In this document: positions 21,360 to 36,959 of the stretch, piece by piece
Numbering within the stretch: position 1 is the first letter of the stretch
How the letters are laid out: each line of letters starts with the position of its first letter
NCBI GenBank assembly: GCA_905234795.1
Contig: CAJOIQ010000020.1
Coordinates: 38,716-81,313, forward strand
Source of the DNA: an uncultured Bacteroidales bacterium
GTDB lineage: Bacteria > Bacteroidota > Bacteroidia > Bacteroidales > UBA932
Length of the DNA stretch: 42,598 bases
Direction: 5' to 3'
Notes under the pieces: model-generated
What the model saw: only the letters and a program-made list of their open reading frames with translations
What the model was told of the DNA's origin: nothing
Databases searched by the model: none
Translations under genes and position numbers: made by a program

Positions 21360-22053
21360 ACTCTATCTCATCCCCACGCCGCTGGGCGAAGGCAGCCCGG
21401 CCGATGTCCTCCCGGCACCGGTGCTGGAGCTTCTGCCCACCCTGGACCGCTTTGTAGTGGAGGAAACCCGCACCGCCCGGCGCTTCCTGTCCCAGGCGGG
21501 GCTCAAGGGGCATATCGGGGAGCTGGATTTCCACGAGCTCAACGAGCACACCAATCCGGCTCAGGTGGAGGCCTTCCTTCCCCTCTTTGCCGATGGCCAC
21601 GACGTAGGTCTGCTCTCCGAGGCCGGTCTCCCGGCCGTGGCCGATCCCGGCGCCCTGCTGGTGGCCCTGTGCCACCGTCACGGCATCCAGGTAGTGCCCC
21701 TGGTGGGCCCTTCCTCGCTGATGCTGGCCTTGATGGCCTCCGGCCTCAACGGCCAGTCCTTCGCCTTTGCGGGCTACATCCCCGCCAAGACCGAGGAACG
21801 CCGAAGCGCCCTGCGCAACCTGGAAAAGCGTTCGGCCCAATACCACCAGACGCAAATCCTCATTGAAACCCCTTATCGCAACGACGCCCTGATGGCCGAT
21901 ATGCTGCAGTGCCTGGGCGGTAATACCCGCCTTTGCGTGGCCGCCAACCTCACTTGCCCGGACCAGTTCATCTGCACCCGCCGCGTGACCGACTGGAAAT
22001 CCCAACCCGTCACCATCGGCAAACGTCCCTGCGTATTCCTGATCCTGTCATGA
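21346..22053 (+). CDS. SAM-dependent methyltransferase, tetrapyrrole-methylase/RsmI family
   Basis: A 235-residue protein. The start at 21346 overlaps the tamB stop by 14 bases; the reading frame is open further upstream, but that part lies in tamB. MTYGKLYLIPTPLGEGSPADVLP resembles the RsmI opening, and LLSEAGLPAVADPGALLVALCHRHGIQVVPLVGPSSLMLALMASGL matches the RsmI SDAGTPxxSDPG and GPSA region that binds S-adenosylmethionine. It is shorter than RsmI of E. coli (about 286 residues) and differs in the first motif (SEAG for SDAG), as in a Bacteroidota paralogue annotated only as SAM-dependent methyltransferase. Its target may be 16S rRNA C1402 or another RNA. Its neighbours TsaD and MtaB support an RNA-modification role. 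Confidence 0.78.
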   Translation: MTYGKLYLIPTPLGEGSPADVLPAPVLELLPTLDRFVVEETRTARRFLSQAGLKGHIGELDFHELNEHTNPAQVEAFLPLFADGHDVGLLSEAGLPAVADPGALLVALCHRHGIQVVPLVGPSSLMLALMASGLNGQSFAFAGYIPAKTEERRSALRNLEKRSAQYHQTQILIETPYRNDALMADMLQCLGGNTRLCVAANLTCPDQFICTRRVTDWKSQPVTIGKRPCVFLILS

Positions 22054-23414
22054 AAATAGCATTCACCACACTGGGCTGCAAGCTCAATTACGCCGAAACC
22101 TCTACCTACGAAAGAGGCTTCAAGGCCGCCGGCTGGGAGGTAGTCCCCTGGACCGCCCCCGCCGACGTCTATCTGGTGAATACCTGCGCCGTTACCGAGA
22201 CCGCCGAGAAAAAGTCCCGCAACCTCATCCGCCGCGCGCATAAAACCGCCCCCGACGCCCGCATCGTGGTCACCGGCTGCTACGCCCAGCTCCGCCGTGA
22301 CCAGCTTCTCTCCATCGACGGCGTCTGGAAGGTCTTCGGGGCCGATGAAAAGAATCTGATTGTCCCCACGACGGTGGAGGAAGGTACCCCCTGGGGGGCG
22401 TGTCCACCCCCGGACACGGGCAGGGGGAGGGGCCCGTTGGATACAAGTCCCGAAGGGACGCAGGAGACAATGGGAGGGGCCGGAATGGAGCAAAGCGGAA
22501 TGGAGTCCCCCCGGGGGGTACCTTCCTCCACCGCCGCCATTATCGGCGCTTACTCATCCGGAGAACGGACAAGGAGTTTTTTGAAGGTACAGGATGGGTG
22601 CGACAATTTCTGCGCATATTGCACGGTGCCGTTTGCGCGGGGCAGAAGCAGGAATATCCCCATCTGCGAGTGCGTGAAGATGGCCCGGGAGATTGCGGCA
22701 AAGGGCGTAAAGGAAGTGGTGCTGACGGGGGTGAATACGGGAGACTTTGGAAGGACTACCGGAGAGAGTTTCCTGGAGTTGCTCAAGGCATTGAATGAGG
22801 TAGAAGGAATTGAGAGATACAGGATTTCGTCCATAGAACCCAATTTGATTACGCCGGAGATTGTGGACTGGATTGCTTCCGGGACCAAGTTCCAGCGGCA
22901 CTTCCATATTCCGCTGCAAAGTGGAAGCGACACGCTTCTCAGGCGCGTGGGCCGACGTTACGACACCGCCCTCTTCGCTTCCCGCATCGACTACATCCGC
23001 CAGGCCATGGAGCGTCCGGGAGAGGCCAGGGTCTTCTTCGGCATCGACGTCATCGTGGGCCTGCCGGGAGAGACCGAGGAACTGTTCCAGGAAACCTACA
23101 ACTTCCTTAAGGACCGCATCAGGCCGGCCTTCATCCACGTGTTCCCCTACTCCCGCCGCCCCGGCACCCGTGCTGCGGAATGGAAGGACCAGGTACAGGA
23201 CAGCGTGAAGACCGAAAGGGTAGCCCGGCTGGAAGAGTTATGCGCTCAGCTGCATGCCGACTTTATTGCAGCCAACAAGGGCGTCCATGAAACCGTCCTG
23301 TGGGAATCGTCCGTCAAAAACGGCGTCATGGGCGGCTATACCGGCAATTACATCCGCGTGGAAAAACCATTCGACCCCACGCGGGTGAACACTTTGGAGG
23401 AGGTTGAACTATGA
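22050..23414 (+). CDS. mtaB: tRNA t6A37 methylthiotransferase MtaB with an in-frame inserted element
   Basis: MtaB is a radical-SAM enzyme with two iron-sulfur clusters that converts t6A37 to ms2t6A37. The start at 22050 overlaps the methyltransferase stop as ATGA. The N-terminal methylthiotransferase domain has cluster cysteines C10, C46 and C77; the radical-SAM core has C184, C188 and C191 in CDNFCAYC; a TRAM-like tail ends the 454-residue protein. Residues about 108-162, between the two domains, are encoded by a 162-base palindromic element and are low-complexity (Gly/Pro-rich). The enzyme is probably still active, because the insert falls in the linker and keeps frame. Codon use just downstream (22555-22930) differs sharply from both flanks. 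Confidence 0.92.
   Translation: MKIAFTTLGCKLNYAETSTYERGFKAAGWEVVPWTAPADVYLVNTCAVTETAEKKSRNLIRRAHKTAPDARIVVTGCYAQLRRDQLLSIDGVWKVFGADEKNLIVPTTVEEGTPWGACPPPDTGRGRGPLDTSPEGTQETMGGAGMEQSGMESPRGVPSSTAAIIGAYSSGERTRSFLKVQDGCDNFCAYCTVPFARGRSRNIPICECVKMAREIAAKGVKEVVLTGVNTGDFGRTTGESFLELLKALNEVEGIERYRISSIEPNLITPEIVDWIASGTKFQRHFHIPLQSGSDTLLRRVGRRYDTALFASRIDYIRQAMERPGEARVFFGIDVIVGLPGETEELFQETYNFLKDRIRPAFIHVFPYSRRPGTRAAEWKDQVQDSVKTERVARLEELCAQLHADFIAANKGVHETVLWESSVKNGVMGGYTGNYIRVEKPFDPTRVNTLEEVEL
22372..22533. repeat. palindromic element with terminal inverted repeats, in frame within mtaB
   Basis: The two ends are inverted repeats of 27 bases with one mismatch (22372-22398 and 22507-22533); the outer part reads GGTGGAGGAAGGTACCCCC. 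Each end also carries a near-palindromic C-run/G-run (CCCCCCGGGGGG at 22507-22518). Inside are smaller hairpins: 22399-22405 with 22412-22418, and GTCCC (22447-22451) with GGGAC (22455-22459). A direct repeat CGGAATGGAG occurs at 22481 and 22496. The length of 162 is exactly 54 codons with no stop in the mtaB frame. It has no coding capacity of its own. No second copy is present in the window. Confidence 0.8.
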
Positions 23415-26204: not shown

Positions 26205-26257
26205 CGGGGGGGGGCGCCGCCGCGTGCTTTTCAGCTAATTAGTTGATATTTAACACT

Positions 26258-26303
26258 TTAAGTTTTTCTCTTGACACCATTTGGGATCAAGAGAAAAACT
26301 TAA
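26258..26303. terminator. long AT-rich inverted repeat between convergent genes
   Basis: A perfect 17-bp inverted repeat, TTAAGTTTTTCTCTTGA (26258-26274) with its complement at 26287-26303, and a 12-base loop. It follows the plus-strand tsaD operon and faces pckA. It probably acts as the terminator of the plus operon and, by symmetry, works on both strands. Between the acyltransferase stop and this repeat lies a run of nine G (26206-26214). Confidence 0.7.
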
Positions 26304-26338
26304 ATAATTAACAATCAGCACATTACAACATATCCACA

Positions 26339-35304: not shown

Positions 35305-36138
35305 ATGGATCCCAGAATTGAAACCGTCAACCGACACGCCGAAGTCATTAAAGGACGCATTCAGGGACGTCAGCCCGTTTTGGGCATTGTCCTGGGCAGC
35401 GGCCTGGGCAAACTGGCCGAACAAATCCAGGACCCTGTCGTCATTCCCTATAAAGAACTTCCCGGCTTCCCCGTTTCCACGGCCACAGGTCATAAAGGCA
35501 ACTACATCGTAGGCCAGCTGGGTGGGAAAACCGTCATCGCCATGCAGGGCCGCATCCACTATTACGAGGGATACGGCATGGACAAAGTGGTCCTACCCAT
35601 CCGCGTGATGATTGCCGTGGGCATCAAGACCCTCATCGTCTCCAACGCCGCAGGAGGAACCAACCTCAGCTTCCACGTGGGAGACCTCATGGTCATCAAA
35701 GACCATATCAACCTGCTGCCCAATCCCCTCATCGGCCCCAACTGGGACGAGGAAGGTCCCCGTTTCCCGGACATGACCCGTCCCTATGACCCTTCCCTCA
35801 TCCGCCTGGCCTTCTCTGAGGCGCGCAAGATGGGCATCTCCCTCCAGCAGGGCGTATATGTAGGCGGCACCGGTCCTTCCTATGAGACGCCGGCCGAATA
35901 CAAGTATTTCCGCAGCATCGGCGGTGACGCCGTGGGCATGTCCACCATTCCCGAGGTCATCGTGGCCCGCCACGCCGGCATTCCCGTCTTCGGCATGTCC
36001 GTCATTACCAACGAGGCCCACGACGACTATGCCGACGATTATGTGAACGACGGAGAAGACGTGGTGGTGGCAGCCAATGCCGCAGCCGACAAAATGAGCC
36101 GCCTGATTGTAAATATGATTGAAAAAATGTCACTATGA
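35305..36138 (+). CDS. punA: purine nucleoside phosphorylase, copy 1 (Asn form)
   Basis: Trimeric PNP splits purine nucleosides with phosphate to base and ribose 1-phosphate. The 277-residue protein has [13 protein letters not shown] (phosphate loop, near 29-41), [11 protein letters not shown] near 84-94, VSNAAGGTN near 113-121, [13 protein letters not shown] with the base-binding Glu, and [13 protein letters not shown]. The base-specifying residue is Asn236 in SVITNEAH, aligned with human PNP Asn243, which favours 6-oxopurines (inosine, guanosine). It starts eight bases after the deaminase and is followed, with an ATGA overlap, by a close paralogue. Confidence 0.94.
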
Positions 36139-36959
36139 GTTACGCAGATACCATCAACCTGGCCGCCGACTATATAAAAACCCGTCTGGAGGGCCGTCAG
36201 CCCGTGGTGGGCATCGTCCTGGGCAGTGGCCTGGGCAAACTGGCCGATGAAATTGAGAATCCCCTGGTCATTCCCTACAAGGACGTTCCGGGCTTCCCGG
36301 TGTCCACGGCCATCGGCCACAAGGGAAACTTCATCATCGGCACCCTTTCCGGAAAAACGGTGATTGCCATGCAGGGCCGCATCCATTACTACGAAGGATA
36401 CGGCATGAACCTGGTCACCCTCCCCATCCGCGTGATGAAGGTGATCGGCATCCAGTACCTGTTTGTGTCCAACGCCGCCGGCGGCACCAACCTGAGCTAC
36501 CACGTGGGAGACCTCATGATCATCAAGGATCACATCAACCTGCTGCCCAACCCGCTCATCGGCCCCAACCTGGACGAATTCGGTCCGCGTTTCCCCGACA
36601 TGACCCGTCCCTATGACCCCGCCCTCATCCGCAAGGCCCAGAAGATTGCCGATAAACAGGGCATCTACCTGCAGCGCGGCGTGTATGTGGCCGTCACGGG
36701 TCCCTGCTATGAGACGCCCGCCGAATACAACTACTTCCGCAGCATCGGTGCCGACGCCGTGGGCATGTCCACAACGCCGGAGGTCATCGTGGCCCGCCAC
36801 AGCAGTATTCCGGTCTTCGGCATGTCCGTCATCACCGACGTCGCACACGCCACCGAGGATGAAGATTACGTCACCGACGGAGAAGCCATTGTGAAGGCCG
36901 CCGACGCCGCAGCCGACAAGATGACGGTCATCTTCAAGCGGCTGATCGAACAGCTGTAG
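36135..36959 (+). CDS. purine nucleoside phosphorylase, copy 2 (Asp form)
   Basis: A 274-residue tandem paralogue of the preceding gene, roughly two-thirds identical by eye, and without signs of decay: [55 protein letters not shown] and [13 protein letters not shown] are all kept. At the base-specifying position it has Asp235 (SVITDVAH) in place of Asn. In human PNP the Asn243-to-Asp change is known to admit adenosine, and methylthioadenosine phosphorylases carry Asp there, so this copy is predicted to prefer 6-aminopurines. That is inference from one residue. It overlaps copy 1 by four bases and ends the operon; the 43 bases to the next, convergent gene show no strong terminator. Confidence 0.9.

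Follow-up and report, generated by a model that had tools for sequence, protein, structure and literature searches.

Rickettsia palindromic elements (RPEs; Ogata et al. 2000) are described as repeats of some 105-150 bp that end in inverted repeats, form a stable stem-loop and occur both between genes and as in-frame fusions in conserved protein genes (PMC2229807, PMC10969869). In one of these accounts they encode a conserved peptide (PMC10969869). The element studied here lies within a methylthiotransferase gene of an uncultured Bacteroidales bacterium, and it agrees with those accounts in its terminal inverted repeats, long stem-loop and size (162 bp, and about 150 bp for the copies in another genome, G061). 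Copies are likewise found in frame in conserved genes, ten of 29 in this genome, as well as between genes. The sequence-only reading of this DNA had drawn the same comparison; it holds for in-frame palindromes in genes and fails for the peptide, since RPEs are described with one conserved peptide whereas 19 typed copies out of 21 here use five of the six combinations of orientation and phase. The two systems also differ in phylum, the present one belonging to relatives within the Bacteroidales, and in that different palindromes occupy one site in different species here. The branched, covarying core and the strand-biased wobble pairs of our element may be further differences. The family works like RPEs, an analogy with their description and not with their sequence.

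ERIC, YPAL and the 107-bp form of NEMIS are bacterial MITEs for which in-frame gene fusions are reported (PMC2229807). They share with our element a small size, non-autonomy, hairpin formation and in-frame fusion to genes. Target site duplications are given for all three in that account, whereas none was noticed in passing here, and the copy-variable closing arms of our element are not among the features described in that account (PMC2229807). IS1272, a member of the IS1182 family, is reported to replace target stem-loops with no target duplication (PMC5678879). The present system is similar in that transposase genes are often flanked by the element and one palindrome apparently replaces another; it differs in that the element carries no transposase, is not an IS end and occurs in many genomes in which no such transposase was detected. 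REP and BIME repeats are associated with RAYT transposases (PMC3733652). Our element resembles them in being palindromic, dispersed and plausibly folded as a single strand. REPs are 20-40 bp long; the element is far longer and was found at none of four Y1_Tnp loci.

The host gene, which we take to be mtaB, occupies positions 22050-23414 on the + strand of the window (the whole 42,598-nucleotide stretch of DNA analysed; the window coordinates of the element below are on the same strand). From its ORF and Pfam matches it encodes a UPF0004 and radical SAM methylthiotransferase of 454 amino acids, and its relatives by sequence in the PDB are annotated MiaB and RimO. The element lies at 22372-22533, with its core in the + orientation relative to mtaB, and is matched by a covariance model at G000:C20:61097-61238 with 145 bits. 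Its closing stem consists of a left arm (22372-22398) and a right arm (22507-22533), which vary from copy to copy and covary with each other. The arms are 27-base inverted repeats whose single mismatch reads as T.G on the + strand, a wobble pair; looser ends of 30 nt, 93% complementary, can be drawn at 22369-22398 and 22507-22536. Hairpin H1 (22399-22418) has the loop ACCCCC and corresponds to columns 18-37 of alignment A3, in which 99.3% of its cells are paired and two of seven pairs have double-sided changes. Hairpin H2 (22433-22474; A3 columns 52-99 and alignment A4) contains a conserved internal loop and a G.U pair that 49 of 51 copies retain. Hairpin H3 (22485-22501), with a GCRAAGC apex, is the weakest stem in the subfamily (68.3% of cells paired as drawn in A3). 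The purine motif GGGAGGGGCC, invariant or nearly so in alignments A2 and A3, occurs as a 10-base direct repeat at 22425-22434 and 22472-22481, and CGGAATGGAG is repeated at 22481-22490 and 22496-22505. Two GGGAGGG motifs are also present.

The 162 bases form 54 codons and are stop-free in the mtaB frame, by the ORF call. Pfam places UPF0004 at residues 2-91 of the host protein and Radical_SAM at 179-353, with the element between them. The terminal repeats with one mismatch, the 10-base direct repeat, the open 54 codons and the linker position between two domains had all been put forward in the sequence-only reading, and all are borne out. It had also suggested folding the RNA: the element region has a predicted RNA fold of -102.7 kcal/mol against -80.0 +/- 4.5 for shuffled sequences (z -5.0; none of 200 as good). 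The complementary strand folds with z -4.9, close to the + strand. In the mtaB copy all six frames are free of stops, an outcome equalled by none of 300 dinucleotide shuffles. Eleven copies in this genome have from two to six open frames each, so that six-frame openness is not general; three of these (L001, L005, L008) are more open than their shuffles (p<0.05). The AlphaFold model, made with 45 aligned MtaB proteins, has a mean pLDDT of 87, with values of at least 90 in 320 of 454 residues. The pLDDT falls below 50 at residues 115-162, which lie in the element loop, and the loop is therefore predicted to be disordered. Such a floppy loop is likely harmless to the protein. In named records the relatives of MtaB come chiefly from uncultured Bacteroidales, many of them from rumen samples, and include two from Candidatus Cryptobacteroides at 62% identity, which makes the host a likely member of that group.

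The sequence of the element recurs in this genome, so it is no chance palindrome; it belongs to a repeat family, as had been suggested from the sequence. A DNA search of this genome finds 12 more places, one of them a 31-base fragment, not counting two matches of the arms of the mtaB element against each other. The covariance model, built from 21 copies, gives 29 matches in this genome at E<=0.01 including the mtaB element. In the genus the family is present in 84 of 101 genomes (E<=0.001), this one counted, and 17 gave no match; strict filters were used and up to 31 candidates were scored per genome, so that per-genome copy numbers are lower bounds. Across the order, a sample of 197 other genomes gave no match (E<=1e-5, with 16 candidates scored in each); it included one genome from this genus and another from this family, and among all 198 genomes the present one is the sole match. 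The palindromic family is known here from a single genus. Rfam gave a best score below its gathering threshold for window positions 22200-22700 and no match up to E=1 for 11 loci. A literature search of open-licence PMC papers returned, among the papers listed, no report of such a family in Bacteroidales or Cryptobacteroides. The window holds other repeats. A 44-nt imperfect inverted repeat (77%, 2-nt loop) lies at 26236-26325; similar text (GTTTTTCTCTT... GGGATCAAGAG) adjoins a truncated copy of the element, L013, and is maybe another repeat family. Two diverged direct copies at 35320-36924 (75% and 81% in two blocks, spaced by 827 bases) are a possible tandem gene duplication.

Ten of the 29 copies in this genome are in frame in conserved genes, nine of them besides the copy in mtaB, which answers the earlier suggestion to look for further in-frame copies. 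The other hosts are truA, truB, tilS (a partial copy), murB, uvrA, and genes for a PLP aminotransferase, an M20 peptidase, a family-2 glycosyltransferase and a Radical_SAM_N protein, presumably of YgiQ type. Genes named hutI and folP from protein motifs, without Pfam, are additional hosts in other genomes. Because five of the six orientation and phase combinations are in use, no particular peptide appears to be selected. The in-frame list comprises ORFs that span a copy, and any out-of-frame copy within a gene would be found among the other 19, which look intergenic. Pfam searches of the flanking ORFs of 13 of these 19 (one of them single-sided) showed no case of one family lying in two parts around the element; several neighbours have no Pfam match, and unknown genes may be disrupted there. 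About one third of random lengths keep the frame, and ten copies in frame with no disrupted gene noticed fit purifying selection. The sequence-only reading had suggested that the family may tolerate or prefer in-frame entry into linkers. Tolerance is evident in ten genes; a preference is not, the pattern being what selection against frame-breaking copies would produce.

Family copies have a common core of hairpins H1, H2 and H3 with the two purine motifs, enclosed by a closing stem of about 15-30 bp. The closing arms vary in sequence between copies while pairing is held inside each copy, with strong covariation. In alignment A3 (21 rows) 91.2% of cells are paired, against 40-48% with slid partners, and covariation is 0.523 against 0.157 in shuffles, a value reached by none of 500; the weakest measure, the number of pair types, is matched by seven of 500. 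A3 derives from alignment A2 (30 rows) by removal of nine rows in which H3 is short or enlarged or the core diverges (L026, L027, L043, L144, L155, L161, L169, L170 and L171). An independent prediction by RNAalifold contains 40 pairs, 24 of them with double-sided changes. A model-aligned set of 52 matches (51 distinct) is 98.1% paired with covariation of 0.625 against 0.172, in an alignment that leans to the model. In 28 mtaB copies the arms are 94% complementary within a copy and 43% between copies, the former being high by construction because the arms were found as inverted repeats.

The wobble pairs of the family are biased to one strand. On the GGGAGGGG strand there are 114 G.T and seven A.C pairs, an excess that comes mainly from two H2 pairs, which are G.U or U.G in 49 of 51 and 37 of 50 copies; both these and the covariation counts are drawn from related copies, so that their independence is overstated. 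The arms alone have 20 G.T and six A.C pairs, with more G.T in 14 rows and fewer in three. When the arms of the mtaB copies are read in the sense of the mRNA there are 14 G.T and 16 A.C pairs (28 rows), and when they are turned by core orientation there are 19 and six (24 rows, four of the 28 having no assigned orientation); these rows are related too. The bias tracks the orientation of the element and not the sense of the mRNA, and the fold therefore seems to serve the element rather than the host mRNA. As the complementary strand folds nearly as well at the mtaB copy, it is the wobble pairs alone that carry the strand assignment. Their pattern suggests that the form under selection is a folded single strand. 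Biased deamination could be an added source of the G.T excess.

The same linkers can be read in other species. From 110 mtaB loci (L044-L153), eight identical and eight with a single anchor found by pattern were dropped, leaving 94 distinct genes. A palindrome counts as intact when its inverted repeat scores 12 or more and its core exceeds 30 nt; one is present in 28 of the 94 linkers, and the remaining 66 are empty, eroded or different; the covariance model also matches some linkers counted as unoccupied (L117, L118, L137). The median linker is 66.5 aa when occupied and 35.5 aa otherwise. On a quick MtaB tree with many weak branches the occupied or empty state changes 17 times, and core orientation changes seven times among 24 copies. 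The linker is a hot site, with 22 of the 26 model matches in 484 kb around 71 mtaB genes lying within it and four outside. Sequence that by eye resembles in-frame remnants is found in the 'empty' linkers L075, L086, L054, L088, L097 and L103. Single spots are also used in more than one species in murB, truB, the aminotransferase and the radical SAM gene. Other repeats occur in these linkers: L198 (truA), L056 and L094 (mtaB) and L225 (murB) contain short in-frame REP-like repeats with peptides such as CHSERSEES and VIPSEVEES, and the mtaB linker of L087 has head-to-tail SCTNNANFVHQNPENTG-like peptide repeats, a different kind in the same place.

Cores in mtaB linkers vary and flip between species, twice within near-identical arms. 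L076 and L077 have a common 23-base left flank and arms matching at 20/22 and 22/22, and their cores are opposite, with 68% identity when flipped and 47% unflipped; L082 has a core 86% identical to the one in L077. Between L105 and L110 the arms match at 15/16 on each side, and the cores have 57% identity flipped and 47% unflipped. A simple inversion of the core between its arms was considered and rejected, the cores of both pairs being too unlike even when flipped. Core replacement fits these pairs better than inversion alone. In truA the core lies at the same spot in this genome as in G028, in the opposite orientation. Of 30 truA loci 12 were missed by the pattern and 18 were read. Insert-free genes have 22-23 aa between anchors (L200, L211, L212, L214, L218, L220, L221), and this genome has 71 aa, so about 147 bp were gained here. 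The other gaps are 10 aa in L217, 32 aa in L215, 26 aa in L198 with its REP-like repeat, and 29-77 aa in L195, L196, L197, L199, L201, L203 and L205. In the aminotransferase copy one arm covers the host codons RAEV, which are kept in empty orthologues and mirrored on the far side. Inverted duplication of target flanks, considered for the truA, aminotransferase and folP arms, is not claimed; the arm GGAAGGGATACCCTCC... travels with the G061 copies, and the arm tips of many copies resemble it. Host codons in an arm are clear for the aminotransferase only, where copying from arm to arm after insertion would be the simpler reading.

Some copies appear to have moved recently as whole units. Seven loci in G061 (L354-L360) have near-identical core and arms, and L354 and L358 differ in both flanks and have 154 bases in common at 98%; some other G061 pairs match over longer stretches because their flanks too are repeats. 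Twelve loci in G016 have a common 110-base core (88-94%), L343 alone having wholly different arms. Transposase genes with the Pfam domains DDE_Tnp_1_6 and DUF772, which we take to be of the IS1182 family, are found near the element. It adjoins such a gene at ten of 13 loci, on both sides at six; the three without it are gene fragments, and some loci end at contig ends. The background for comparison is the four matches outside the linker in the 484 kb around mtaB genes. At the G027 and G113 transposase loci the right elements are 96% identical and the left ones 52%, which is another swap. This genome has one IS1182-like transposase found, in two overlapping frames at L154 2104-3713 (G000 contig 26), with inverted copies of the element on either side. 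At E<=1e-20 the transposase is present in 12 of the 101 genus genomes. It is absent from G016, listed as 98% complete, despite at least 30 element matches among 31 candidates scored; therefore another helper exists or the helper was lost.

The possibility that the element is itself the terminus of an IS1182-like IS was rejected. At L178/L179 it lies inside the IS, between apparent outer hairpins and the gene; the AAGAGGGTGACTAA hairpins outside it resemble IS ends (as inferred) and, unlike those of an IS1182-derived MITE, its terminal inverted repeats are not those of the IS. Hairpins of the form AAGAGGGTGACTAA ... TTAGTCACCCTCTT occur in L178 (1128 and 3245), L180 (1153 and 1184) and L020 (474-505), beside IS1182-like genes and other copies of the element, and may be IS ends or a common type of terminator. 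L362 (G000:C15:22624-23133) has one weak RVT_1 match in a 588-aa open frame, a reverse-transcriptase-like match that would be relevant if the element moves through RNA.

We therefore propose, with good confidence, that the mtaB insert is one copy of a family of folded palindromes, known here from a single genus and likely to have spread without an enzyme of its own as a folded single strand; this copy is in frame and is predicted to be translated as a floppy interdomain loop. The element would travel around the genome as folded ssDNA or RNA, and the fold itself would be what a mobilising enzyme recognises. A helper in trans would then be required, which is the least certain step. The best candidate, as yet unproven, is the IS1182-family transposase, favoured because the related IS1272 is reported to act on and replace stem-loops (PMC5678879). 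Selection would remove copies that break the frame or land in folded regions of proteins, and an in-frame copy such as that in mtaB would be translated into a floppy loop joining two folded domains. A bolder form of this proposal, possible but doubtful, is a system of palindrome exchange. A folded single strand recognised by shape would swap the inside of an existing hairpin while the stem stays, and the linkers of housekeeping enzymes would be permanent docking sites where, from one species to another, cores are exchanged or turned round with the frame kept.

The fold could also be moved by a different enzyme, a Y1 (HUH, RAYT-like) transposase that handles hairpin ssDNA as for REP and BIME repeats, with the link to IS1182 being a safe harbour only. 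Strand-biased wobble pairs suit ssDNA, this genome has two Y1_Tnp matches over the family cut-off and two below, and the linkers that hold the element elsewhere also carry shorter REP-like repeats (L198, L225, L056, L094). The element is however near none of four Y1_Tnp loci and is four to eight times the length of a REP, and we consider this unlikely. Quasipalindromes can be corrected by template switching between their arms during replication, and such switching might keep or create the palindromes as a mutational pattern with a functionless fold. Arm complementarity of 0.94 within copies and 0.43 between them is as this would predict, as are the mirrored RAEV codons, but it leaves dispersal to 29 places, the conserved core and the one-strand G.U pair in 49 of 51 copies unexplained. 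It is quite improbable as the whole account; template switching probably acts on the arms additionally.

Two further readings concern the protein. The strong fold in the mtaB mRNA could mean that the segment is spliced out of the RNA or bypassed by ribosomes, giving a protein without the loop. Removal would relax the frame, yet there is no internal stop among the matches listed, and the linker reads through in one frame in the 94 distinct and eight identical mtaB loci of the 110; the other eight have a single anchor, and in none are both anchors in different frames. Copies also occur in both orientations, and no Rfam family reaches its gathering score in the window segment and 11 loci scanned, so that this reading is very improbable. 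An ancient fixed MtaB linker, palindromic by chance, would account for vertical inheritance in some clades, for example L045 and L092 with cores 96% identical. It is refuted: the same sequence is found elsewhere in the genome, 66 of 94 mtaB linkers have no intact palindrome, and the state changes 17 times on the MtaB tree. Neither of the outcomes that the sequence-only reading had named as fatal to its own proposal, a lack of second copies or an insert common to all MtaB orthologues, was obtained.

In-frame palindromic elements are found in Wolbachia as well as in Rickettsia, both of which have reduced intracellular genomes where weak selection is an easy excuse. In the literature cited here they are best known from Rickettsia (PMC2229807, PMC10969869). 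A gut genus that offers dozens of copies and about 100 sequenced species, along with empty sites, apparent scars and exchanged cores, would open two questions to direct test: the way in which such elements move, and the frequency with which mobile DNA turns into protein. For biochemistry, the conserved fold is a concrete substrate.
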